From assembly GCF_009650765.1 (NCBI RefSeq), contig NZ_CP045740.1, positions 4,378,001 through 4,442,000 of the forward strand: a stretch of DNA of 64,000 nt, read 5' to 3'. Both the position numbers and the translations under genes were made by a program. Under the pieces are notes generated by a model that was given only the letters and a program-made list of their open reading frames with translations, had not been told where the DNA came from and ran no database searches. Shown in pieces: positions 6,951 through 63,490 of the stretch. Positions within the stretch are counted from its first letter, which is position 1, and each line of letters starts with the position of its first letter. The stretch comes from Streptomyces sp. SUK 48 (GTDB taxonomy: Bacteria; Actinomycetota; Actinomycetes; Streptomycetales; Streptomycetaceae).

Positions 6951-7424
6951 ATGAACGCCAGCGTCATGAACAGCCGCAACGCGGTCTGTGTGATCGTCCA
7001 CGACAGCGCCGCCGACATGGTCGCCGCCGTGCTCTACGCCGCCCGCAACTGGTCTCCGCAGCCCGCCTGGACCCTACCCGGCGGCAAGGCCGAACCGGGC
7101 GAAGCCCTGGACGAGGCCGCCGCCCGCGAACTCAAGGAGGAGACCGGCCTGCTCGTCGACCCGGCCGGCCTGGTACTCGTTCACGTCATCCACGTAGAAC
7201 AGGGCTGGGACCAGGCTGGGCAGTTCGTCCTCTTCGTCTTCGCCACCGACACGTGGACCGGTGAACTGACCAACACCGAGCCGGACAAGCACCTGACGGT
7301 CCAGTGGGTCACCGCGAACAGCATGCCCGAGCCCGCGTTCCCGACCACCACACAGGCCCTGGCCGCATACCGGGACGGAGGGCCCGCCTTCTCCCGCCAC
7401 GGGTGGTCGGTCCCCGCGACTTAA
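6951..7424 (+). CDS. Nudix hydrolase
   Basis: A 157-aa protein starting at ATG 6951, nine bases after AAGGAG. The Nudix box runs from about residue 43 (GGKAEPGEALDEAAARELKE followed by ETGL) and fits Gx5Ex7REUxEExGU completely. WVTANSMPEPAFP follows near the C-terminus, as in MutT-like proteins. Such enzymes hydrolyse nucleoside diphosphates linked to another moiety; the substrate could be a nucleotide sugar given the neighbouring glycosyltransferases. It is the last gene before the hairpin array and the mobile element. Confidence 0.85.
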   Translation: MNASVMNSRNAVCVIVHDSAADMVAAVLYAARNWSPQPAWTLPGGKAEPGEALDEAAARELKEETGLLVDPAGLVLVHVIHVEQGWDQAGQFVLFVFATDTWTGELTNTEPDKHLTVQWVTANSMPEPAFPTTTQALAAYRDGGPAFSRHGWSVPAT

Positions 7425-7498: not shown

Positions 7499-7748
7499 GC
7501 AGCGCGTGGTCTCCCGATTCGGGAGACCACGCGCTGCGCTTCTGTTCCCCGAGGGAACACCGGACCAGTTCCTTTAGGGAACACGGGGACGTCCAGTCTG
7601 GAAACGCTGACCGTGTCCACTGATTGGACATCGGCGCTGTTCCGATTCGGAACACGCCGCGTGTCCCTTTTCGGGACAAGCCCCGTTTCCCGACCCGGGA
7701 CGCCGTGCGTGTTCAGAGACTGAGCGCAGCGTGGTTCAGGAACTGAAC
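7499..7748. repeat. Array of ten heterogeneous short hairpins at ~24-nt pitch
   Basis: Loop centres fall at 7518, 7551, 7575, 7597, 7622, 7646, 7670, 7694, 7718 and 7741, so the last six are 24, 24, 24, 24 and 23 nt apart. The first has an 18-bp perfect stem (7499-7516 with 7520-7537, loop ATT). The others have 4-7 bp stems: TGTTCCC/GGGAACA, GTTCCT/GGGAAC, TCCA/TGGA, TGTCCA/TGGACA, TGTTCCG/CGGAACA, TGTCCC/GGGACA, TCCCG/CGGGA, GTTCAG/CTGAGC and GTTCAG/CTGAAC. Loops are 3 nt, or 5 nt with a mismatch closing 3 nt. Stem sequences vary but stay complementary, which indicates selection on folding rather than on a protein site. It lies downstream of both the Nudix gene and the relaxase gene. The first hairpin may also act as a terminator. 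Function unknown. Confidence 0.85.
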
Positions 7749-7821
7749 GGCCCTCGGCGGAGAGGCTCACCCTCGGTCGCTGGGCGGGCGGTGCGGTGGT
7801 GACTCGTTCTGGGGTTGGGTG

Positions 7822-9579
7822 TCAGCGCTTGCGGTGCACGGTGTCGGTGGGCCGCTGGATGGCGGGGGGTGTGGTGGTGAGTGGGGTGCGGGTGGTTGTC
7901 GCGTGGCGGGTGCGGGTGGTGGCTGCGCGGGTGCGGGCGGCGGTCTGTTGGGCGGTGGTGTGGCGGAGTCGCCAGGTGAGGACTTCGGCGGGGTGGTCGG
8001 CGCTGTCGAGTTCTCGTTGTTCGGCTGCGGCTGTGAGTGCGTGGCGAGGTGGGGTGCCGGCGGATTCGGCTTGGGCGAGGGTGGTGGCGAGGGCGGGCCA
8101 GGCCGGGTCGGTGAGGATGCGCTGGGCGTGGGCGGGTACGGCTGCCTGGACGACTGCGGCGAGGCGGCGGATCTCGTCCGGTCCGGGGGTGCGGTCGGTG
8201 AGGCGGGCGAGTTCGGGGCGGGCGGTGCGCTGGTAGGCGTTCTGCAGGTGGGCGAGGGCCTGCTGGGCGGCGGCGGCCTGCTGTTCGTGGCCGCGCTGCT
8301 GGTGCCAGTGGTCCAAAGCGATCAGCACGTAGACGGCGATGGCCAGTAGGGAGGCCACCGCGGAGCCGTCCTCGCCGCCCACGGCGCGTATCAGTTCTTT
8401 GCCTGCCTGTCGTAGGGCGTACGCGCTCTGGTGCTCTGCACGGATCGCTGAGCGGTTCGCACGGCCGAACGCGGCTGCTGCGGCATGTAGTTCTGCTCGC
8501 GCTGCCTTCGGGGCGGTGGCGGCGGTGTTGTGGAGCAGTTCGGCGAATGCCGCCGCCTGGGCCTGTACCCGCCGGTCGAACGCTTCCAGGTCCTGCCCGC
8601 CTTCTGGGCCGAGGAGGAAGGCGTGGGTGCTGCGCAGTTCGGATTCGGCGCGTCGCCACGCGTCGCTCTTCGTGCCCCGAGCACGGGCGCGGACGGTGGC
8701 CGTGACTGCAGTGTCGGTGGGGGCTGGGGCGAAGCGTTCACGCAGGCGGTTGAGGGACAGGTCGGGGGCGAGGCTGGAGCCGGCGTAGTAGACCGGTTCG
8801 TTCCTGGCGTCGGTGCCGCCGGGGGCGGCGAGGCTGTAGCCGGTGGTGTCACCGGTCTCGGGGCCGAGCCGTTTCTGGACCTTGATGCCCAGCGCGGTGA
8901 GTACCGCGAAGTACTCGTGTTCGTCACGCGCGGCTGCTGCTGCGGCGTAGGCGTGCTCGCGCAGCCACTGCCGGCTGGTCGTCTTGCGGCCCTGACGCTC
9001 GGCCTTGGCCACCTCGGCACCGGTGGGCGTCTTGGGTGCGGTGCCGTCACCGGACCTCAGCCGGCGCAGTCCGAGTTCGACTTCGATCTTGCGGCATTCG
9101 GCCTGGGCGCGCTGGCCGTCGCGTTTGTTGCGGGGACGGCGGCCGTCCTCGCGGACGCTGGTGGCCATGATGTGGATGTGGTCCTCGGCGTGGCGTACCG
9201 CGATCCACCGGCAGCCGGAGTCGTCGCCGTGCGGGGCGATCCCGGTGGCGTGGACGACGCGGCGCGCGACCTCGGCCCATTCGGCGTCGGTGAGGTAGCG
9301 GTCGCCGGGGGCTGTGCGGACGGGGCAGTGCCACACGTGCTGCGGCACGTTCTTCCCGGTGCGCTGTCGGCGCAGTTCGACAGGCTGGTCGAGGTAGCGG
9401 GCGAGTTCGGTGAGCGCGTCCTGGTGCTCTTCCAGCCGGACGCGGCCGGGATCGGTGATTCCGGGCATGGCGAAGGCGGCGACGATGTGCGGGTCGGTGT
9501 GCTCGTCGCGGCGTCCCGGTCCGAAAAGGTAGGAGAGCAGGCCGCGCGTGCGGTCCCCGGTGGAGACATCAGGCACCAC
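7822..9579 (-). CDS. MobA-type relaxase
   Basis: About 585 aa. The protein would nick oriT and lead single-strand DNA transfer of the mobile element. The N-terminus (VPDVSTGDRTRGLLSYLFGP) is typical of actinobacterial relaxases, and the metal-binding HIHIMAT at about residue 136 is motif III. A likely catalytic Tyr lies in LLSYLFG near residue 16. The C-terminal half is Ala-rich and helical, then Thr/Arg-rich. The frame extends to TTG 9600; I chose GTG 9579 because it matches family starts and overlaps the mobC stop by only 11 bp. Translation is probably coupled to mobC. Confidence 0.8.
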   Translation of the reverse strand: MVPDVSTGDRTRGLLSYLFGPGRRDEHTDPHIVAAFAMPGITDPGRVRLEEHQDALTELARYLDQPVELRRQRTGKNVPQHVWHCPVRTAPGDRYLTDAEWAEVARRVVHATGIAPHGDDSGCRWIAVRHAEDHIHIMATSVREDGRRPRNKRDGQRAQAECRKIEVELGLRRLRSGDGTAPKTPTGAEVAKAERQGRKTTSRQWLREHAYAAAAAARDEHEYFAVLTALGIKVQKRLGPETGDTTGYSLAAPGGTDARNEPVYYAGSSLAPDLSLNRLRERFAPAPTDTAVTATVRARARGTKSDAWRRAESELRSTHAFLLGPEGGQDLEAFDRRVQAQAAAFAELLHNTAATAPKAARAELHAAAAAFGRANRSAIRAEHQSAYALRQAGKELIRAVGGEDGSAVASLLAIAVYVLIALDHWHQQRGHEQQAAAAQQALAHLQNAYQRTARPELARLTDRTPGPDEIRRLAAVVQAAVPAHAQRILTDPAWPALATTLAQAESAGTPPRHALTAAAEQRELDSADHPAEVLTWRLRHTTAQQTAARTRAATTRTRHATTTRTPLTTTPPAIQRPTDTVHRKR

Positions 9580-10396
9580 GGCGGCCACCACCGTCCACAA
9601 CCTGCTCCAGCGCGCGACGCGCCAGCCGCGCGGTCTCGTGCAGTTCGTCGAGGACCTGTTCGGCGCGGTCGGGGAGGTCGCCGGTGTGGATCGCGCGGAC
9701 GATCTGGTTGAGGTTCGTACCGATCCGGTGGAACTCCCGCAGCAGCCTTCCGGACAGGACCATCAGGTCTTGCGTCGCCTGCGGGGAGGGCAGGGCGGGG
9801 ATGGCGGCGGGGCGCTGGTCGGGCAGGTAGGCGTGGGCGAACGTGAGTGCCGCGTCCATCAGGTAGGCCGAGCGGGAGCGCTTCGCCTCGCGTGCGGCGC
9901 GGTCGATGAAGTCGCGCTCCGCCGGTTCCGCCGAGCACGTCAACTGCACGTTCCGTTTGATCCCGGAGCGGGGCCGGTACAGCACGTCGCTCAGCCGCCG
10001 CCGGCGCTCGGAGCCGGGAGCGGCGTCGGTGTCGGCAGGGGCGGGGATGTCGTAGGCGGCGATACCGCGGTGCGCGAACGCGTCAGCGGTGACGGTTGGT
10101 GCGAAGTGCGCGACAGCGTCGGCAGCGGTGGGCTGGTCTTGGTCCTGGTGGAGGTCGCGCTCGGCCTCCACCTTCCCCTGCTCCGAGCCCCGCTGGGCAC
10201 GGGCCTGGTCCGCCCCCGCCGGGGCGGGTCCGAGCGCGAAGTCCGCATCGCCCCCGGCGATGTGGACTTCGCCCCAGCTCGCTCCGCTGTTGACGGTGGT
10301 GCTCTCCGTCGTGTCGCGACGGTGCGAGGGCGCAGTCTGCGGGAGCTGTGCGGGGTGCGTGCGGCGGCCTTTGCGGGAGAACGGGTTGCGGTTCAT
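9569..10396 (-). CDS. MobC-like relaxosome accessory protein
   Basis: A 275-aa protein. The last roughly 110 residues carry the MobC signature: a ribbon-helix-helix-like opening (KRNVQLTCSAEPAERDFI) and RIGTNLNQIVRAIHTGD at about 230-246, equivalent to the conserved 'NLNQ' motif. The first 130 residues are low-complexity, acidic and probably disordered, and longer than in most MobC proteins. It would bind oriT DNA and assist the relaxase, whose start overlaps its stop. The 154-bp space upstream (10397-10550) is the most likely place for oriT by analogy, but no nic motif was identified. Confidence 0.75.
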   Translation of the reverse strand: MNRNPFSRKGRRTHPAQLPQTAPSHRRDTTESTTVNSGASWGEVHIAGGDADFALGPAPAGADQARAQRGSEQGKVEAERDLHQDQDQPTAADAVAHFAPTVTADAFAHRGIAAYDIPAPADTDAAPGSERRRRLSDVLYRPRSGIKRNVQLTCSAEPAERDFIDRAAREAKRSRSAYLMDAALTFAHAYLPDQRPAAIPALPSPQATQDLMVLSGRLLREFHRIGTNLNQIVRAIHTGDLPDRAEQVLDELHETARLARRALEQVVDGGGRRGA

Positions 10397-10550: not shown

Positions 10551-11513
10551 TCATCCGATGGGGTGCGGGCGGGCTTCGGTTCCCTGGCGCACCAGTGCCA
10601 TGGCTTCGGCGAGCCGATCGGTGCCGGCGCCGAGTCCGGCGTCGGTGACGGCCTTGCGGGCGCTGTCGCGGGTCAGTCCGGAATTCCCCGGGTGAGCGGT
10701 GCTGATGATGCTGGCCAGCTCGGCGATGGAGGCGATCGCGGGGCGTCCCCCAGGGCTCGTCTCCGGAGCCTGTCCGGAACTCTCGTGAGGGTTCGGGCCT
10801 GCGGGTTCACGCTCCTCTTCGGGCCCGTCGACGGTGCTGTCAGGAACGCTGTCGCGGCCTTGCCCGGAGCCGGAGCCGGGTGCGTCCGTCGAGGGCGAGG
10901 GCTCGGTTTCGGCGGCCCGGGTGGCGGTAGTCGGCTGCTGGGGCGGTGCCGTAGCGGGCCGGACTGCGACGGCGGTGTACGGAACTTCGGCGGCCAGCGT
11001 GCCCAGGGCTTGCGTACCGTCCTGAACTTCGGAAGGAGTTGCGGTCACCGGCGTCCGGGCGGCGGTGATCCCGCCGTAGCGGGTGATCAGAATGTGCAGG
11101 TGGGTCGCTCCGGCCAGGGCGAGCGGTGCGATGGCAGACAGCACGGTGACGGTGCCGTCGCCCAGGTGGAGTGTGACCGCGCCGGGCCGGTTCAGGTCGA
11201 GAGCGTGAAGCCCGTTGGCCCAGATGCTGGCGGCGGTCGCCGTGATGAACAGCGTCCACGCGTACAGCCGTGCGGGCATCGGCGCTTCGCGCAGGACGAG
11301 CAGGGCGCGGACGCCGTAGGCGATGAACCCGTCGATCACCACGGGGAAGAGGTAGGTCAGTTGGTGGCGGACGTGGACGGCGGTGGCCATCTGCCGCAGC
11401 GCGTCGTAGGAGAGCGCGCATCCGGCGATGCCGAGCAGGACGATGGCGAACCGGTCCCACCAGGTGGCGCGGTGGCGGCTGGTGGGCGTGGCAGGTATGG
11501 CGGTGTCGGGCAT
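10551..11513 (-). CDS. DUF2637 (SpdB-like) membrane protein
   Basis: A 320-aa protein. Four hydrophobic segments occupy the N-terminal half (about residues 20-40, 55-75, 85-105 and 125-145). GCALSYDALRQMA followed by LTYLFPVVIDGFIAYGV is the DUF2637 signature found in Streptomyces plasmid-spread and element proteins. The C-terminal half is a Pro/Thr/Ala-rich cytoplasmic tail ending in a helical segment (ARKAVTDAGLGAGTDRLAEA) that may be a small DNA-binding or winged-helix-like module. It lies upstream of mobC in the same direction. A role in intramycelial spread of the element is inferred. Confidence 0.75.
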   Translation of the reverse strand: MPDTAIPATPTSRHRATWWDRFAIVLLGIAGCALSYDALRQMATAVHVRHQLTYLFPVVIDGFIAYGVRALLVLREAPMPARLYAWTLFITATAASIWANGLHALDLNRPGAVTLHLGDGTVTVLSAIAPLALAGATHLHILITRYGGITAARTPVTATPSEVQDGTQALGTLAAEVPYTAVAVRPATAPPQQPTTATRAAETEPSPSTDAPGSGSGQGRDSVPDSTVDGPEEEREPAGPNPHESSGQAPETSPGGRPAIASIAELASIISTAHPGNSGLTRDSARKAVTDAGLGAGTDRLAEAMALVRQGTEARPHPIG

Positions 11514-11929: not shown

Positions 11930-13132
11930 TCAGTCGGTCCGCGCGTCTCTGGCGTCGTCAGGGCCGGTCTCGGGGTGGACGGACGGGCAGTAGCGCTTCC
12001 AGGCGTCGGCGAACTTCGCGCGGGTGTAGCCCTTGAGCTGGGTGCCGTCGGGCATGCGGACGTTGCCGGAGCGGATGCCGTACTCGCGCAGCAGCCCGGA
12101 GAGGGCGCGCGGGTTGAGCCCGCCGCGCCCGGCCTCAGCCCAGGGGGCTTCGGGGTCGGAGTTGAGGCGGTAGAGCAGGGCGTCGGTGGAGACGCTCTCG
12201 GGGTCGCCAGCGGAGGCGAAGGCGCGGCGGATGTCGGCGAGGATGCGGGCATTGGAGGGGTTGTCCTCCTCGGCCTGGACCTCGGCGGTGACCATCTGCG
12301 TGCATGCGGTGCGGGCGCGCTCGGGCCAGGTGCCGCCTGCGAGGTCGGCGACGATCACCAGAGGCTCCCAGGTGTCGGCCGCCCGGTCCTCGACGGGCAT
12401 CCCCGGCTCCAGATGGAGGGCCTGCTGGCTCACCGAGGCGGCCCAGCGCGCGAGACGGGCCCGCAGTTCGTGCAGGCTGGGACTGTCGCGGCGGGTCCGG
12501 TACGGGCTCACCCGCTCGCCCTCTGCGCGGCGGCGCATCCGGATCACGACGGACCGGTCCATGATCGTGTCGGGCAGATCGCCGATACCGGCGAGCGCCG
12601 CCATGGCGAAGGTCGCGAAGGAGTGGGGTGTGTGCTCCTTGCCGACCACTCGCAGTACCGGTCGGCCGCGCTGATGCCCGGCGTTGAGCAGACCGCGCAT
12701 CTCCTCGTTCTTCTCGGCGACCTTGGGGCTGCCGAAGATGGTGTCGGCTTCGTCCACGAGGAGGGTCGGCGGCTCGTCTGAGATCGAGCGGAAGATGGCC
12801 GCTGCCGTGGAGTTCACGGTGATGACGGGCTTGTGGACCGTCTCGGTGAGCAGGTCGAGCAGGCGGGACTTCCCGCACCGCTTCGCCGGGCCGACCACAG
12901 CCAGACGTGGGGCGTGCTGCCACACCTGCTGGAGGTGAGTGGCCGCGATCCACAGCACGGTTGCGTCCAGTGCCTGCTCGCACGGGAGGACCACGAAGCG
13001 GGCGAGGGCGGTGCGCAGCTCGTCCAGCAGCGCGGCGCCGTCCGGCTGCCCACGGTCCGGTGACGGGGTGCCGGTCGGAAGGGATGCCGCAGGGGCGGCG
13101 GGGGCGGTACTCTCGTTCACGGAGATCCTCAC
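11930..13132 (-). CDS. DUF3631 P-loop ATPase of the mobile element
   Basis: A 400-aa protein. LAVVGPAKRCGKSRLLDLL at about residues 79-97 is a Walker A (GxxxxGKS) and PTLLVDEADTIFG at about 122-134 is Walker B; the C-terminal 150 residues match DUF3631 proteins, common in actinobacterial integrative elements and usually annotated as replicative-helicase or primase-associated. GTG 13132 follows GGAG by seven bases. It may replace a classical Rep protein here, since I see no RepSA- or primase-polymerase-like gene; that is inference. C-terminal residues PETGPDDARDARTD are acidic. Confidence 0.7.
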   Translation of the reverse strand: MRISVNESTAPAAPAASLPTGTPSPDRGQPDGAALLDELRTALARFVVLPCEQALDATVLWIAATHLQQVWQHAPRLAVVGPAKRCGKSRLLDLLTETVHKPVITVNSTAAAIFRSISDEPPTLLVDEADTIFGSPKVAEKNEEMRGLLNAGHQRGRPVLRVVGKEHTPHSFATFAMAALAGIGDLPDTIMDRSVVIRMRRRAEGERVSPYRTRRDSPSLHELRARLARWAASVSQQALHLEPGMPVEDRAADTWEPLVIVADLAGGTWPERARTACTQMVTAEVQAEEDNPSNARILADIRRAFASAGDPESVSTDALLYRLNSDPEAPWAEAGRGGLNPRALSGLLREYGIRSGNVRMPDGTQLKGYTRAKFADAWKRYCPSVHPETGPDDARDARTD

Positions 13133-14101: not shown

Positions 14102-14192
14102 TTCACCAGCGCGGACACCGATCCAAGCCCACCGCCCATCCCGGACAGTCCAGCGGTCACGTTGCCCCGTGACCACCGAAAGGCGATCCCGC

Positions 14193-14498
14193 ATGCCCAC
14201 CACCCTGCCCCCGCTCACCCGCATCGCCGACGCCCTCGGCGTCCCCGAGCAGCGGCTCCGCACTCTGGTGCTGGAACACACGGCACCCACCCCTGACGCG
14301 ACCCTCGCCGCGCTCACCGTCGAGGAGGCCGCCCGCCGCCTCGGCGTCGGCCGCACCACCATGTACGCGCTCATCGCCTCCGGCGAGGTCCAGTCCGTCC
14401 GCATCGGCCGCCTGCGCCGAGTGTCTGCCGATGCCCTGGCCGTCTACCTCGCCGACTGCTCCCAGGCTCCCGCCCCGACCGTCGCCCTCGCGGCCTGA
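14193..14498 (+). CDS. xis: Excisionase / MerR-type DNA-binding protein
   Basis: A 101-aa protein. LTVEEAARRLGVGRTTMYAL (about residues 44-63) followed by IASGEVQSVRIGRLRRV is the winged-HTH 'excisionase family' domain. The upstream GTG 14169 is in frame, but ATG 14193 has GAAAGG eight bases before it and gives the usual length. Only 11 bp separate it from the integrase, an operon arrangement typical of actinobacterial integrative elements. It would bend DNA at the att sites and bias the integrase to excision. Confidence 0.8.
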   Translation: MPTTLPPLTRIADALGVPEQRLRTLVLEHTAPTPDATLAALTVEEAARRLGVGRTTMYALIASGEVQSVRIGRLRRVSADALAVYLADCSQAPAPTVALAA

Positions 14499-14509: not shown

Positions 14510-15745
14510 ATGGCCAACTCCCGCCAGCCCAACGGCGCCTCCTCGATCTTCCTCGGCAGGGACGGCAAGTGGCACGGCTACGTGACCGTCGGCGTCAAGG
14601 ACGACGGCAAACCCGACCGGCGCCACGTCAAGCGCAAGACCCGTGCCGACGCCACCAAGGCGGTCCGCGAACTGGAACGCAAGCGCGACTCCGGCACCGT
14701 CGGCAAGGCCGGGCAGACCTGGACCGTCACGACCTGGCTGACCCACTGGGTCGAGAACATCGCCGCACCACACGTGGGCGAGAACACCATCGACGGCTAC
14801 CGCGTCGCCGTCTACCACCACCTCATCCCCGGCCTCGGCGCACACCGCCTCCCCAAGCTGGAGCCCGAGCACCTGGAGCGCTTCTACGCCAAGATGCAGA
14901 AGGCCGGCAGCGCCGCCGGTACCGCGCACCAGGTCCACCGCACCGTGCGCACGGCCCTCAACGAGGCGGTGCGCCGAGGTCACCTCACCGTCAACCCCGC
15001 CTCCGTCGCCAAGGCGCCACGCCTGGAGGAGGAAGAGGTCGAGCCCTACACGGTTGAGGAGGTGCAGAAGCTCCTCGACCTGGCCAACAAGAGCCGACAC
15101 CCCGCGCGCTGGGTCATATCCCTGGCACTCGGACTGCGTCAGGGCGAGGTCCTCGGGCTCAAGTGGACGGACGTCGACTTCGAGCTGCGGGTCATGACGG
15201 TCCAGCGCAATCGACTGCGACCTCGGTACGAGCACGGCTGCGGCAACCGCTGCGGGCGCAAGCCCGGCTACTGCCCCCAGAAGGTCAACATCCGACGCGA
15301 GACCAAGGACACCAAGTCCCGCGCCGGACGTCGGCCCATCGGCATCCCCGAACCGCTGGTGCGGCTGCTGCTCCAGCACCGGCGAGAGCAGGAGCGGGAC
15401 CGCCGACTGGCCGGCGACCTCTGGACGGAGAAGGGGTACGTCTTCGCCTCCCCGACCGGCGAGCCCCTCAACCCGAACACCGACCACCACGAGTGGAAGG
15501 ACCTCCTGAAGGCGGCGGGTCTGCGCACAGGCCGTCTCCACGACGCCCGTCACACGGCGGCGACCGTGCTGCTGATTCTCGGTGTTCCGGACACGGTCGT
15601 TGACGCGATCATGGGCTGGGAACCCGGCAAGTCCGCCCGGATGCGCCGCCGCTACCAGCACCTCACCAACCGGGTGCTCACGGACACGGCCGACAAGATC
15701 AGCGGCCTGCTCTGGCCGCTGCCCGAGGTACCGCCCGTCGTCTGA
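14510..15745 (+). CDS. int: Tyrosine site-specific integrase
   Basis: A 411-aa protein. An N-terminal AP2-like/SAM-like DNA-binding part (to about residue 180) precedes the catalytic domain. LALGLRQGEVLGLKW holds the first catalytic Arg (about 210), RLHDARHTAAT gives the HxxR box (about 345) and MRRRYQHLT the nucleophilic Tyr (about 384). The second box His is replaced by Trp in MGWEPG, a common variant. A Cys-rich insertion (HGCGNRCGRKPGYCP) is visible at about 243-257, typical of Streptomyces integrases of this type. It follows xis and ends before a strong hairpin. Confidence 0.9.
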   Translation: MANSRQPNGASSIFLGRDGKWHGYVTVGVKDDGKPDRRHVKRKTRADATKAVRELERKRDSGTVGKAGQTWTVTTWLTHWVENIAAPHVGENTIDGYRVAVYHHLIPGLGAHRLPKLEPEHLERFYAKMQKAGSAAGTAHQVHRTVRTALNEAVRRGHLTVNPASVAKAPRLEEEEVEPYTVEEVQKLLDLANKSRHPARWVISLALGLRQGEVLGLKWTDVDFELRVMTVQRNRLRPRYEHGCGNRCGRKPGYCPQKVNIRRETKDTKSRAGRRPIGIPEPLVRLLLQHRREQERDRRLAGDLWTEKGYVFASPTGEPLNPNTDHHEWKDLLKAAGLRTGRLHDARHTAATVLLILGVPDTVVDAIMGWEPGKSARMRRRYQHLTNRVLTDTADKISGLLWPLPEVPPVV

Positions 15746-15843: not shown

Positions 15844-17859
15844 CTATTCGGGGCTGCCTTCGTCTGTAGTGGTCTCGTCGTCAATCAGCCCGTAGGGGGG
15901 TCGGTCCTCGTTGCGGCTGTACCGGACCACGACGTTCTCTTCCACGAGCATGGGCGGACTGTTGTCGACGATGATCACCTGGGCACCGGCCCCCTGTTCA
16001 GCCAGCCAGCTGCTCAGGTGGCGGTAGAAGTCGTCGATGGCGATCGCGTCTGCGATTACCGCATCCCGGGTGGCGCCGTGGCCCAGGTTCTTCTGTGGGC
16101 TGTCGATCATGAGGAAGCCGGGGTGGGCTGCCGATGTTTCGACGGCGACCTCGAAGACGGCCAGCTGCCAGGCCAGGGTCAGGAGTGTTCGGGCGCCGGA
16201 TGATGCCTCGCGGTAGGAGTCGCCGCGTACGTTAGGAACCAGGTTCGTGTCGATCATCGGCTGGCTGAGTTTCGGGTAGCGCCACTGCCGCAGGAGGTCG
16301 CTGTACCGGCCGCTGATTCGGCCGACCATCAGGTCCCGGTCCTGTGCGGCATCTCCCAGCCGGTCGCGTTCCTCCCGCAGACGTTCGATCTGTGCCTCAT
16401 GCCGCTCCACGAGCGCGGCGCGCTTCTCCAGGCCAGCCTGAAGCTTCGTCGCGTTCTCGGCGTGCTGTAGATGACGGAGGACTTCCTCGCGCCGGCGCTG
16501 GAGGTTGTCGCGAGCGGCGAGGAACGGGGTGACGGTGGGCGAAGTGGCCTCGTCGACCGCGGCCGCGGCACGTTCTTCGTCGATGGAGGCGTCTTCTGCC
16601 TGGAGCTTCAACGTGGCGAGCGAGCTGTCCAGGCCCTCGATGTAGGCAGTGATCTCCTTCAAACGGGCCTTGGTGGCCCTGACCTCGGCTGCGACGTCCA
16701 GCCGCCCTTCATCCGACGAGTGCTCAGCTGTGGCGGTGCCGAGCGTCAGGTGACCGTCGCCGTGGGGCAGCTCGTGGCTGCAAAGACTGCACGAGCCGTT
16801 TTCCACCGACGGGGGAGCGGGCAGTCGGTTCAGGCACGCCGGGCAGTTGGTGACGCTGAGGGGGTCGAACAGGCGCTGCGCTTCGGCCAGCATATTGAGC
16901 TTGACGAGGTCGTCCGCGTACTGCGCCCGCAGCGGCATCATCCGGGTGAGTTGCGTCTCGCAGTCACGTACCACGCCGGCGGCTTGCCGGGCGCGCTGGG
17001 CAGCTTGCTGGTGCTCGCGGCGCAGACGCCCGGCGAAGGCGGTGCCGGCTTGCGCTGCCTCGTCGAGGACCCGTAGTTGCTCGGTCAGCTCCCGCAGCTC
17101 GCCTTCGTATTGCTCAGCGATCAGCGCGCCGACCGTGGGAACGTCCTGCTCGTCGACGAACGCCCGTGCCGCGGCGAGTTCGGAGCGTGCCTGGGTGAGT
17201 CGGGCACCCAGTTCTTTGATGCGTTGCCCAAGCTCGACGGCGCGGTCGTCGTGAACGCCGAAGACGACGTCGACCACCTGCTTCAGCTTGTGCTTCTTCA
17301 TGTACTCGTTCTCGAACAGGAAGTTCTTGGAGGCGACGCGCTCGTTGGGCAGAAACGCGAGGTTCATGAGGTCGCGGATGCTCAGGGGGTCGGTCCGGGA
17401 CTCACGACTGGAGGGGGCCTCCCGCAGCTGGACGCCTTCGAGCTTGCAATGCCCCAGCAGCAGAGCGGAGAGGCTCTCGGGTGCTCCCGCCGGCTCGATG
17501 GTCCTGCTCTCAGGCTTGGAGAGCGGCGGGCTGTCCAGCGTCCCCCGGCGTACGTAGGCGACCTTCGACGGTTCCCCGACGGGCCGCTCGATGACGTGCG
17601 GTTCGCCGGACAGCTCGACTTCCAGAAGGCAGGAACGGACCTTCCGCAGCACCTCAGGATGCCGTGGATGACGCTTCCCGCCGAGGCCGTAGGCGATGAA
17701 CTCCAACACCGCGGTCTTGCCCGAGCTGAATGCCCCGGCTACCACGGACAGGTCCCGCACCCGCTGGTCCTGCGTGAAATCGACGTCATAGTTCCGGCTG
17801 ACGCCAGCAAGGCGCAGGCGCCGGATCCGGATGCCAGGCAGAGGCTGCATGGTGGTCAT
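15844..17859 (-). CDS. SMC/RecN-like ATPase of an ABC-3C-type system
   Basis: A 671-aa protein. Walker A is GAFSSGKTAVLEF at about residues 42-54; the C-terminal half holds a signature region (REASSGARTLLTLAW, about 550) and Walker B FLMIDSPQKN at about 585-594. Two coiled-coil arms flank a zinc hook made of CPAC and CSLC (about 335-357), as in Rad50/RecN-like proteins. Its ATG overlaps the stop of the next upstream gene by 4 bp. With its two partners it matches the ABC-three-component (ABC-3C) conflict systems described by Krishnan, Burroughs, Iyer and Aravind, in which the ATPase is thought to sense invading nucleic acid. Defence activity is inferred. Confidence 0.75.
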   Translation of the reverse strand: MTTMQPLPGIRIRRLRLAGVSRNYDVDFTQDQRVRDLSVVAGAFSSGKTAVLEFIAYGLGGKRHPRHPEVLRKVRSCLLEVELSGEPHVIERPVGEPSKVAYVRRGTLDSPPLSKPESRTIEPAGAPESLSALLLGHCKLEGVQLREAPSSRESRTDPLSIRDLMNLAFLPNERVASKNFLFENEYMKKHKLKQVVDVVFGVHDDRAVELGQRIKELGARLTQARSELAAARAFVDEQDVPTVGALIAEQYEGELRELTEQLRVLDEAAQAGTAFAGRLRREHQQAAQRARQAAGVVRDCETQLTRMMPLRAQYADDLVKLNMLAEAQRLFDPLSVTNCPACLNRLPAPPSVENGSCSLCSHELPHGDGHLTLGTATAEHSSDEGRLDVAAEVRATKARLKEITAYIEGLDSSLATLKLQAEDASIDEERAAAAVDEATSPTVTPFLAARDNLQRRREEVLRHLQHAENATKLQAGLEKRAALVERHEAQIERLREERDRLGDAAQDRDLMVGRISGRYSDLLRQWRYPKLSQPMIDTNLVPNVRGDSYREASSGARTLLTLAWQLAVFEVAVETSAAHPGFLMIDSPQKNLGHGATRDAVIADAIAIDDFYRHLSSWLAEQGAGAQVIIVDNSPPMLVEENVVVRYSRNEDRPPYGLIDDETTTDEGSPE

Positions 17860-18434
17860 CCCTCCCAGGGCATGTCAGGTGCCTGCGGTCCCGGACCCAG
17901 CACGCTGAGGAGCGCGGCACCGGGACCGCCCTCGCCATCCGGCCTCAGCCACCGTGCGGTCTGTTCCCGCAGCGCCTTGTCGCTGAGCTTGCGGAGGCTA
18001 CGCACGACGATGGACGCCGCAGTGGTGAACGACGCGGCGTAGGTGGCGGTGAAGCGAGCCCCGAGTTCCCGACCGCGGTTGCTGATCGAATAGGCGAAGG
18101 CGCCGTTGCGGTTGTGAACCTCGCAACACCCGTAAGCCACGAGCAGCCCGAGATCGTGCTGGATGCGCTCGCGTCGACTGGTGAAGCGCTGCGAGGAGGA
18201 CGCGTACGAGAGCACCTGCGGATCGAACCCGGCCAGCCTGAGCATATTGCCCTCCCGGCCGTCGGAATTGACGACTAGGAAGGGATTCGCAGACAGGAAG
18301 TCGTAATAGCCGATGCGCTCCAGGCTCGCCCCCTTCGCGTCCTGTCCGGCGACAGCGTCGAGAAGAAGCAGCAGCTGCGCCAGCCGGAAGGTCACCTCGT
18401 CCTCCGGCATCATCACCGGCCGGTGTGCTTCCAC
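17856..18434 (-). CDS. ABC-3C middle component-like protein
   Basis: A 192-aa protein. GTG 18434 is chosen because CGAGGAG lies six to seven bases upstream; the frame is open further but would overlap the nuclease gene extensively. The middle reads FRLAQLLLLLDAV, then a winged-HTH-like stretch (TSRRERIQHDLGLLVAYGCC and AFAYSISNRG). This helix-rich, wing-containing layout fits the small 'middle component' that accompanies ABC-3C ATPases. It is coupled to the ATPase (ATGA overlap) and lies 40 bp after the nuclease stop. Confidence 0.6.
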   Translation of the reverse strand: MEAHRPVMMPEDEVTFRLAQLLLLLDAVAGQDAKGASLERIGYYDFLSANPFLVVNSDGREGNMLRLAGFDPQVLSYASSSQRFTSRRERIQHDLGLLVAYGCCEVHNRNGAFAYSISNRGRELGARFTATYAASFTTAASIVVRSLRKLSDKALREQTARWLRPDGEGGPGAALLSVLGPGPQAPDMPWEG

Positions 18435-18474
18435 AGCGAACTCCTCGTAGGTCTGACAGGACAGGTGACGGCGG

Positions 18475-19455
18475 TCAGCCGTCGGGGTGCTCGGCGGCGA
18501 TCTGCCGCCAGTGTTTGACCCAGCCCGCCTTGCGGTTGTCCACGAGCCGGTGGACCAGCCCCCAGCTGTGCACCAGCTCCAGGCGGAGCGACTTCGGCAA
18601 TTTGTCGTGCTCGTTGCGTACATCCCGCCAGACACGGGTGTGGAGAACTCGAAGCGCGTCCTCAGCCGCGCATTCATTGAACTGCATCTCCCATAGCCCG
18701 TGGAGCGTCGCATCGGCAGAACTGAGCGCCGCCACCTCAGCCGGAACATCCTTGTGCGCGATCTCGCGAGCCACCAGATCGGCATTGAAGAACTGCCTCT
18801 TGGCCGAGTCCAGCTCCACGTGGCCGGCCTCTGTCATCTGCCGAATGAACAAGGCGGAGCCAAGGGCAGCTGCCTTGTCGTCCTCGACCTCGAGTACCAG
18901 CCGAAGCTGCTCCACGGGGGCCGGGGCGGAGGCGGCCTGAGCGTACGTCTCGTAGAAGCCGCGACGCACGTCGTCGCCTTCGGGGCTAAGAAGCTTCTTC
19001 CGGAGGGCGGTCTCGTCCCAGAGCTGGATGACGAGGCCGAGTTCCTTCTCCCTCGCCTTCGTCCACGTGTCCCACCATGCCGTCATGGGGCCGTCCATGC
19101 TGGAAGGGATGCACAGAATCCAGCTGGCGATGGTGTGGCCGTTCTTGACGGCTGCCTTCAGCACGTTGTCGAGCGAGTCTGTGACCTGCTGTACGTGCTT
19201 CTTGGTGGTGACCGGCATGAAGTACTTGGACTGCCACACTGTGATCGCTCCGCCGAGGTTTCCGGCGAAGGCGTCGATACCCCAGTCGCCCGGGTTCGCA
19301 GCGACGGACCGTACGTTTGGGGTCGTTGCGGCGGCAAGCTGAGCGATCATCGTTTCGAAGTCGTCGCGGGCTCCGCCGAGGCTTCCCCCGCGGACTGCGT
19401 GCACGTCGAAGCTGATTGGCTGGACACCCGTCGGCACGGCTATCGAGTCAGGCAC
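18475..19455 (-). CDS. PD-(D/E)xK nuclease-like effector of the ABC-3C-type operon
   Basis: A 326-aa protein starting at GTG 19455 behind GGGGGG. The N-terminal 130 residues look like a restriction-endonuclease fold: FETMIAQLA, GDWGIDAFAG (catalytic Asp about 61) and VWQSKYF (the QxK motif, about 73-79), as in Mrr-like enzymes. The C-terminal 200 residues are helical and match no family I can name, consistent with the ABC-3C C-terminal effector linker. It is the first gene of the three-gene operon. It probably cuts DNA when activated by the SMC-like partner. Confidence 0.65.
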   Translation of the reverse strand: MPDSIAVPTGVQPISFDVHAVRGGSLGGARDDFETMIAQLAAATTPNVRSVAANPGDWGIDAFAGNLGGAITVWQSKYFMPVTTKKHVQQVTDSLDNVLKAAVKNGHTIASWILCIPSSMDGPMTAWWDTWTKAREKELGLVIQLWDETALRKKLLSPEGDDVRRGFYETYAQAASAPAPVEQLRLVLEVEDDKAAALGSALFIRQMTEAGHVELDSAKRQFFNADLVAREIAHKDVPAEVAALSSADATLHGLWEMQFNECAAEDALRVLHTRVWRDVRNEHDKLPKSLRLELVHSWGLVHRLVDNRKAGWVKHWRQIAAEHPDG

Positions 19456-63304: not shown

Positions 63305-63470
63305 GACGGCTCCGCGCGCACGCGCCGAATCCCGCAAGGGAACCGGGGAACCACCACCTTGGGGTGAATCACGCGAAAACCGTCACGGACCGCACGCCGG
63401 TCCGCGAGCGGTATACGCGCGTAGGAGACCTTCCTGCTCCGAACCCGTCAGCTAACCCGGTAGGCGGAGG
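63305..63470 (+). ncRNA. c-di-AMP riboswitch (ydaO/yuaA class)
   Basis: Hallmarks of the actinobacterial form are present in order: CCGAATCCCGCAAGGGAACC, GGGGAACCACC, GGGGTGAATC, GGAGACCTTCCTG and GAACCCGTCAGCTAACCCGG. TCCGC near 63311 and GCGGA near 63464 can close P1 just before the ribosome site GGAAAGGAG (63472-63480). High c-di-AMP normally turns such genes off. It controls the downstream envelope protein gene. Confidence 0.85.
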
Positions 63471-63490
63471 AAGGAAAGGAGCACGCCCCC

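Follow-up and report, generated by a model that had tools for sequence, protein, structure and literature searches.

An array of palindromes beside a relaxase gene

The window, by which we mean the whole stretch of 64,000 nucleotides from Streptomyces sp. SUK 48 that was analysed, carries at 7543-7749 nine 17-nt palindromes with a 24-nt pitch, one of which has decayed. The genes round this array, from the relaxase to the tyrosine integrase, form an integrative element with a relaxase, and Pfam finds an XRE gene among them as well. The features of the locus are as follows.

6951..7424, plus strand: NUDIX protein, convergent neighbour
7499..7537: terminator-like hairpin, a 19-bp perfect inverted repeat between the convergent NUDIX and relaxase genes; not an array unit
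7543..7559: unit 1, TGTTCCC CGA GGGAACA, type TTCC; an identical unit occurs in L010 and L122
7567..7583: unit 2, AGTTCCT TTA GGGAACA, type TTCC
7590..7606 (about): unit 3, decayed, in weak register; decayed in the G341 orthologue too
7614..7630: unit 4, TGTCCA CTGAT TGGACA, type TCCA; three copies in G341
7638..7654: unit 5, TGTTCCG ATT CGGAACA, type TTCC; two copies in G341
7662..7678: unit 6, TGTCCC TTTTC GGGACA, type TCCC
7686..7702: unit 7, TTTCCCG ACC CGGGACG, TCCC-like with a changed outer pair
7710..7726: unit 8, TGTTCAG AGA CTGAGCG, TTCA-like with one T.G pair
7733..7749: unit 9, GGTTCAG GAA CTGAACG, type TTCA
7822..9600, minus strand: relaxase (PF03432)
9569..10396, minus strand: MobC/NikA-like accessory protein
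10551..11513, minus strand: DUF2637 protein
11930..13132, minus strand: DUF3631 protein
14169..14498, plus strand: HTH_17 protein, excisionase-like
14510..15745, plus strand: tyrosine integrase

The table of PMC3218068 equates RepAM with DUF3631. A Pfam scan of 20 window ORFs showed no T4SS or FtsK-type transfer gene, and a direct-repeat search did not find the ends of the element. At 15844-18785, a large ORF (671 aa, no Pfam match) adjoins a gene for an ABC-three component middle component 2 (PF20288); together these may make up a defence system next to the integrase. A c-di-AMP riboswitch (RF00379, 90.2 bits) lies at 63313-63481. About 32 kb outside the window, the same genome encodes an SCO6880-family gene (L227, G000:C1:4474191-4475633, 184 bits), beside which no ParB of the array-linked family described below was found.

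The original prediction for this locus had been ten hairpins at a near-constant 24-nt pitch. The hairpins are indeed present, but only nine are units: the tenth, at 7499-7537, is longer than the units, is centred 33 nt from the first of them and out of register, and is best treated as a separate terminator-like hairpin. An alignment shows that the G341 orthologue keeps this inverted repeat with a paired T:A to C:G change. The units themselves are centred at 7551, 7575, 7598, 7622, 7646, 7670, 7694, 7718 and 7741, which gives the expected 24-nt steps apart from two of 23. That the stems keep complementarity is likewise largely borne out, since 50 of the 63 arm positions pair and the arms covary, the exception being the decayed unit 3. 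The array does lie beside a relaxase, whose gene ends next to it. Nor is the array a product of chance, because composition-matched shuffles never reach its pairing: the maximum was 38 paired positions in 2000 dinucleotide shuffles of the array region and 41 in 20 shuffles of the whole window, while the best other place in the window reached 39.

Two simple classifications of the array were rejected. It is not a CRISPR array, as the units differ in their arms, the spacers are 6-8 nt long, and no Cas domain was found in the 20 Pfam-scanned ORFs. It is also not a coding sequence in the window, where the two 23-nt steps break the frame and two long through-frames have no Pfam match.

It had also been proposed that geometry is conserved in the array while sequence is not. 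We found otherwise: the units share GT-Y-C-M...K-G-R-AC, with the consensus YGTYCM...KGRACR. Aligned units have G2, T3, C5, G13, A15 and C16 in common, with Y and R at the ends, while the variable base pairs are 4 (T:A or C:G), 6 (C:G or A:T), 7 and, rarely, 3, with the two arms changing together. Further variation falls in the two end bases, the loop and the spacers. Pair 4 is Watson-Crick in 80 of 86 distinct units, where independent arms would give 51.7, and pair 6 in 83, where they would give 49.7.

Strong covariation of this kind at paired positions is what would be expected if the units fold as hairpins in single-stranded DNA, during conjugative transfer or rolling-circle replication, or in RNA, such that pairing alone matters. 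However, pairing alone does not account for the near invariance of the GT, C, G and AC positions. No strand bias was found either, pairs 2-7 containing 7 G.T or T.G and 10 A.C or C.A combinations in 60 distinct units from the three positional classes defined below (A, B and C), read along the gene. In addition, no Rfam family was found at gathering score in the window array or in 12 array loci.

Related arrays are found in many Streptomyces genomes

We searched for relatives of the array with a covariance model, R1, of three units, built from the units of the window, L006, L010 and L012. R1 matches 82 of 392 congeneric genomes (E<=0.01), of which G000, G136, G009 and G007 match by construction because the model was built from their units. 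When 293 genomes of the order were searched at E<=1e-5, 23 matched, and all 23 belong to the window's genus, one of nine represented; for surveys of over 40 genomes the filters were stricter. Units also occur in the ParB-like genes of named Kitasatospora records (e.g. L167). Searches with blastn gave no match to the array among plasmids and phages and, in 150 congeneric genomes, four short matches besides the window's own, of which L006 and L007 were useful and L004 and L005 lie in other sequence without an array. We found no description of such arrays in the literature, so far as the partial texts available cover it.

Forty of the best-scoring arrays were fetched with 15-17.5 kb stretches. 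A relaxase homologue was detected by tblastn in 29 of these 40, two of which are short matches only (L055, L077), even though relaxases of this kind are not common, a match at E<=1e-20 being present in 63 of 101 genomes. This co-occurrence, which had been suggested as something to check in a covariance-model search, agrees with the earlier suggestion of a transfer-linked array, in that the arrays are tied to relaxase or transfer elements. In the 38 arrays outside ParB genes, the pitch is 24 in 90 of 100 steps.

The fetched arrays occupy three recurrent positions. Class A arrays lie directly 3' of a relaxase, as in the window and 10 of the 40 loci (L051, L057, L063, L070, L076, L078, L083, L084, L088 and L089). 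Class B arrays (11 of 40) follow, at 82-83 nt from its stop, a small gene of cluster c5, which has no Pfam match and looks HTH_17- or excisionase-like by eye, and precede a DUF3631 gene. Class C arrays (8 of 40) lie in frame inside a ParB-like gene (L056, where the gene is split over two frames, L064, L065, L066, L068, L072, L073 and L085); seven of these loci have no relaxase match and L072 has one. Two of the 40 matches, L087 and L090, proved to be other repeats, the context of L071 and L082 is unsettled, and the remaining arrays lie near relaxases in other positions.

In 10 of the 11 class B loci the array lies 60-189 bp upstream of the DUF3631 gene as called (in L058 that frame extends into the array), a position that would suit operators for a regulator of the element itself or of its host. 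We consider this reading very unlikely, as arrays are found in different places (within a gene, between genes or 3' of a relaxase), a single array can hold several arm types, and no gene cluster accompanies every array.

Class C arrays lie within genes for orphan ParB-like proteins

The genes that contain class C arrays are named in their sources as ParB N-terminal domain-containing protein, ParB/RepB/Spo0J family protein, or plasmid replication/partition related protein, and the array sits in frame just before the part of the gene that encodes the HTH. The family consists of orphan ParB-like proteins with a ParB/Srx-like N-terminal domain and an HTH. Its profile gives weak matches to structures of Noc, ParB and Spo0J (best E 8e-6), and the LG[RK]GL ParA-binding motif was found in the first 80 residues of none of the 120 homologues listed. 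Altogether 408 homologues were found, of which 120 were listed and 99 parsed; at least one unit is present in 90 of the parsed proteins and none in nine. The other 21 of the 120 did not parse with our pattern and were left out of the helix-unit count given below.

An AlphaFold2 model of one member, P0031 (mean pLDDT 81, pTM 0.45), places the units relative to the predicted fold. Residues 91-102, coded by the first two units, have a model confidence below 50, while the third unit codes the first HTH helix (104-111) and the recognition helix is modelled at 115-127.

The family has at least two branches with different neighbours. The seven class C loci that lack a relaxase match all contain genes of clusters c10 and c12, tested representatives of which are VirB4-like and SCO6880-family, which makes these loci T4SS-type conjugative elements. 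In the second branch the ParB-like gene has one unit; 19 loci with such a gene were fetched, and in 15 of them a relaxase match lies next to it. The ParB-like genes of L129-L146 each have one unit, in frame, and most have a relaxase as neighbour; those members with an Arg helix have an asymmetric site, with a TTCC-type left arm and a GGGAC right arm.

The family was found in 31 of 392 genomes, a set that does not include G000, G007, G009 and G341, so we rejected the idea that every array has a ParB-like partner in the same genome. No member was found in the window genome (E<=1e-10; 6 of 39 first-look candidates scored), whose only ParB_N match is the chromosomal ParB sequence. In PLSDB, no record covers 80% of the query, and 63 records match partially at below 60% identity. 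A cognate ParB is thus encoded together with the site for arrays inside ParB genes, and not for the window genome.

The arrays inside ParB genes are predicted to be the family's own loading sites. There is precedent for such an arrangement, in that Bacillus subtilis has a parS inside its parB gene. No second site cluster was found in 39 ParB-bearing stretches scanned, some of which represent the same locus twice, and in the whole genomes of G270, G188 and G256, which have TTCAG-type ParB genes, at most one exact TTCAG site per genome lies outside the array.

Units within ParB-like genes are constrained as DNA

The 24-nt pitch implies an octapeptide periodicity, which had previously been regarded as secondary. 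This view does not hold for the relatives in which the array lies in frame inside a ParB-like gene, and we asked whether the peptide or the DNA is conserved there. If the repeat served to code an octapeptide, the peptide would be kept and the codons would be free. Instead, codons that are rare elsewhere in the same frames are preferred in the units and third codon positions covary, and we rejected this explanation. In the T4SS branch, the Arg codon CGT is used in 29 of 34 cases in units and in 123 of 1041 elsewhere in those open frames, with corresponding values of 28 of 36 and 27 of 292 for the Ser codon TCA, 27 of 31 and 156 of 391 for the Glu codon GAA, and 10 of 10 and 101 of 445 for the Gly codon GGA. 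In the relaxase branch, GGA is used for Gly in 11 of 11 cases in units and in 66 of 406 elsewhere. These counts include near-identical genes, and L072 and L099 are one gene.

We then considered 64 distinct coding units. Pair 6-12, which joins third codon positions, is Watson-Crick in 58 of the 64 (the best of 5000 permutations gave 45), and pair 3-15, which does the same, in 61 (best permutation 59). The filter for this set required G2, T/C3, C5, G13, A/G15 and C16, and the protein pattern limited residues 2 and 5; pairs 2-16 and 5-13 are therefore conditioned by the filter, which fixed those positions. A C:G at pair 3 (GCTCAG/CTGAGC) occurs in all three units of L102 and two of three in L103, and in combination with the helix RISQA of these proteins may represent a further position of the code described below. 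These sequence patterns show that, in coding units, constraint acts on the DNA itself.

Arm types correspond to residues of the recognition helix

Arm types differ from gene to gene and follow the recognition helix that the gene itself encodes. Among the 99 parsed homologues, all 21 genes in which Arg is the first helix residue have P..G units (C4:G14), and non-Arg helices go with S..E units (T4:A14) in 67 of 69 genes with units, the other two being mixed. A second correspondence appears at the DNA level in 39 distinct genes (L169 and L173, for which no helix was parsed, are left out): A6:T12 is found in 18 of 19 genes with an S.G helix and in 1 of 20 with other helices, the remainder of the latter having C:G (16) or A.G mismatches (3). 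The combinations of T or C at pair 4 with C or A at pair 6 define four main recognition classes.

On a tree of 88 proteins from which the array and HTH had been removed, the helix label changes six times, the unit label six times, and the two jointly six times. Because the array adjoins the HTH, linked inheritance inflates the helix-unit association. The Arg rule holds fully in two lineages (ARA and SRG) and by half in a third, so that there are few independent events. The half case is the relaxase-linked branch, where T4.G14 is found in 9 of 9 distinct Arg-helix genes and the code fits one half-site. Against the code stand L097, which has mixed units, and 3 of 24 non-Arg genes in which T4.G14 is the commonest type.

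The Arg column lines up with G-R-S-R in the chromosomal ParB that the window genome encodes. According to the relevant part of PMC7383237, R173 of Caulobacter ParB contacts a parS guanine, and its replacement with Gln is part of a switch to Noc sites. We treat this likeness as a parallel, and not as proof, because the base position differs.

That arm types go with recognition-helix residues argues for duplex sites, bound by dimers that differ in specificity. Folding of single strands, as the locus was originally read, does not predict such a relationship, and the tracking of arm types with the ParB-like recognition helix makes a folded DNA or RNA function less likely than it had seemed. Two further observations bear in favour of folding: pair 4 is T.G in 12 and C.A in only one of the 64 distinct coding units, and the elements that carry the arrays are, where their context is settled, conjugative or mobilizable. 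Of the 12 T.G units, however, seven or eight come from the relaxase-linked ParB branch. On balance, we regard folded hairpins as an improbable explanation, though not a negligible one.

Palindromic units that lie in frame in a coding gene and also in intergenic DNA could instead be a selfish repeat that inserts in frame. Rickettsia palindromic elements offer the model: these are palindromic DNA elements in frame in genes, which gives them a likeness to the coding units, and they are longer and dispersed, unlike the array units. We know of no link between the Rickettsia elements and a DNA-binding protein. In our data, positions recur within element lineages, in-frame units occur in one gene family only among the fetched loci, and arm types go with the HTH, all of which runs against insertion of a selfish repeat and leaves it a far-fetched explanation.

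We conclude that the putative sites and the recognition code are well supported by sequence, and that there is strong indirect evidence for predicting each 17-bp palindrome to be a duplex site for a ParB-like dimer.

Arrays outside ParB genes often combine several arm types

Of the 19 distinct ParB genes that have at least two symmetric units, 18 contain a single arm type. Arrays outside ParB genes contain several types in 16 of 32 cases and one type in the other 16 (Fisher 0.0016 for the contrast, close relatives included). The set of 32 includes class B relatives and leaves out arrays in or derived from ParB genes (including L053), as well as L082, L087 and L090. The 127 symmetric units outside ParB genes, selected with C5 fixed, positions 3 and 4 limited to T or C, and pair 6 free, comprise 81 TTCC, 24 TTCA, 17 TCCC, 4 TCCA and 1 CTCA; these five types are the same five that are seen in ParB genes. 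The window array holds the four main types, TTCC, TCCA, TCCC and TTCA. The longest composite arrays, counted by units passing the filter, are L207:7824-8247 (14 units) and L209:7879-8235 (12 units). Both lie 3' of a relaxase with a cluster c14 gene adjacent, and in both like units come in runs of about three.

Comparison of the window array with its orthologues shows how such arrays change. In G341, whose relaxase is 93% identical, the array has the window's set of types and is longer, with 13 units by our count compared with nine, and G422 has runs of three like units. A more distant orthologue in G080 has three units, one of them decayed, while in G028 (relaxase 75% identical) no array was found within the 1.5 kb looked at. 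Over eight unit pairs of the window and G341, matched by hand with the decayed unit left out, differences fall at 5 of 96 stem positions, 6 of 24 loop, 13 of 56 spacer and 5 of 16 end-base positions (Fisher 0.0006 for stem against loop plus spacer).

The window array might also be a relic, left or passively expanded after loss of a one-unit ParB-like gene 3' of the relaxase. The one-unit branch and its neighbours provide a plausible source, as the gene is beside a relaxase homologue in 15 of its 19 fetched loci; in L053 the frame of a ParB-like remnant runs through the array, albeit with an hmmsearch E of only 0.33; and the copy number of 3, 9 and 13 among orthologues would fit passive expansion. 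Yet the stems change less than the loops and spacers, modules of several arm types cannot derive from a single one-type gene, and the class B arrays follow a different gene at a fixed distance. For these reasons we consider a relic unlikely.

A model for the window array

The reading that we favour, with moderate confidence, is that the 17-bp palindromes are parS-like duplex sites of an orphan ParB family, and that the mobilizable element of the window is a hitcher that recruits the ParB of a helper. We infer that the element is a mobilizable hitcher because it has a relaxase and no transfer machinery was seen among the scanned ORFs. The multi-type set of sites on mobilizable elements would probably be read by ParB proteins of helper elements. 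When a helper ICE enters the cell, the hitcher array would recruit that ICE's ParB, which would load on the array and mark or spread over the hitcher, such that the hitcher might be segregated, expressed or transferred together with the helper. Several site types in one array would widen the range of helpers. The outcome of binding could be co-segregation, coupling of transfer, expression of rep or mob genes, or titration, the alternatives being that the hitcher uses, senses or titrates the helper's protein.

The predicted system has features of several known ones. Like ParB-parS and Noc-NBS, it has short palindromes that an HTH would read, and its proteins match structures of Noc, ParB and Spo0J distantly; in ParB and Noc, HTH residue 173 and three others set base preference, as the text of PMC7383237 on this subject describes. 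Unlike those systems, it has an odd-centred 17-bp site in 24-bp tandem arrays and several specificity classes in one family and in one array, its listed proteins lack LG[RK]GL, and the window element does not encode the ParB. BisD of a Pseudomonas ICE, which the available sections of PMC12704722 describe along with other orphan ParB-CTPase proteins on mobile elements, is likewise an orphan ParB-like protein of integrative elements; the same sections describe no tandem multi-type site arrays for BisD of the kind found here. The Streptomyces plasmid SCP1 has parS1 and parS2, and plasmid ParBs with different inverted-repeat sites, but these are 13-bp and 19-bp sites in three identical copies each, round complete parAB operons (PMC13245405, in the portion available). 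The closest known logic is that of SGI1, a mobilizable island with sites for the helper activator AcaCD, one of them upstream of an HTH_17-rep cluster (excerpts of PMC7433901). There, as predicted here, sites for a helper protein lie on a mobilizable island; judging from those excerpts, SGI1 depends on one helper family and one specificity, whereas several ParB-like specificities are suggested here from sequence alone.

A broader version of this proposal, which we advance tentatively and would not yet call probable, is that mobilizable Streptomyces elements carry "skeleton-key" arrays, small libraries of parS-like sites that between them match the four main recognition classes of the ParB-like proteins found on conjugative elements. 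Many helpers, each distinct from the others, could then adopt, sense or mark one such hitcher, and the recognition code would be readable from genomes, as every ParB gene carries sites of its own. If this is true, it would explain how a mobilizable element might remain open to more than one helper, and would make helper range predictable from sequence. It would also give a ParB family a natural specificity code that can be read from sequence, with site and reader in one gene, and would mean that the in-frame palindromic octapeptide repeats of actinobacterial ParB-like proteins are features of the DNA rather than of the protein.
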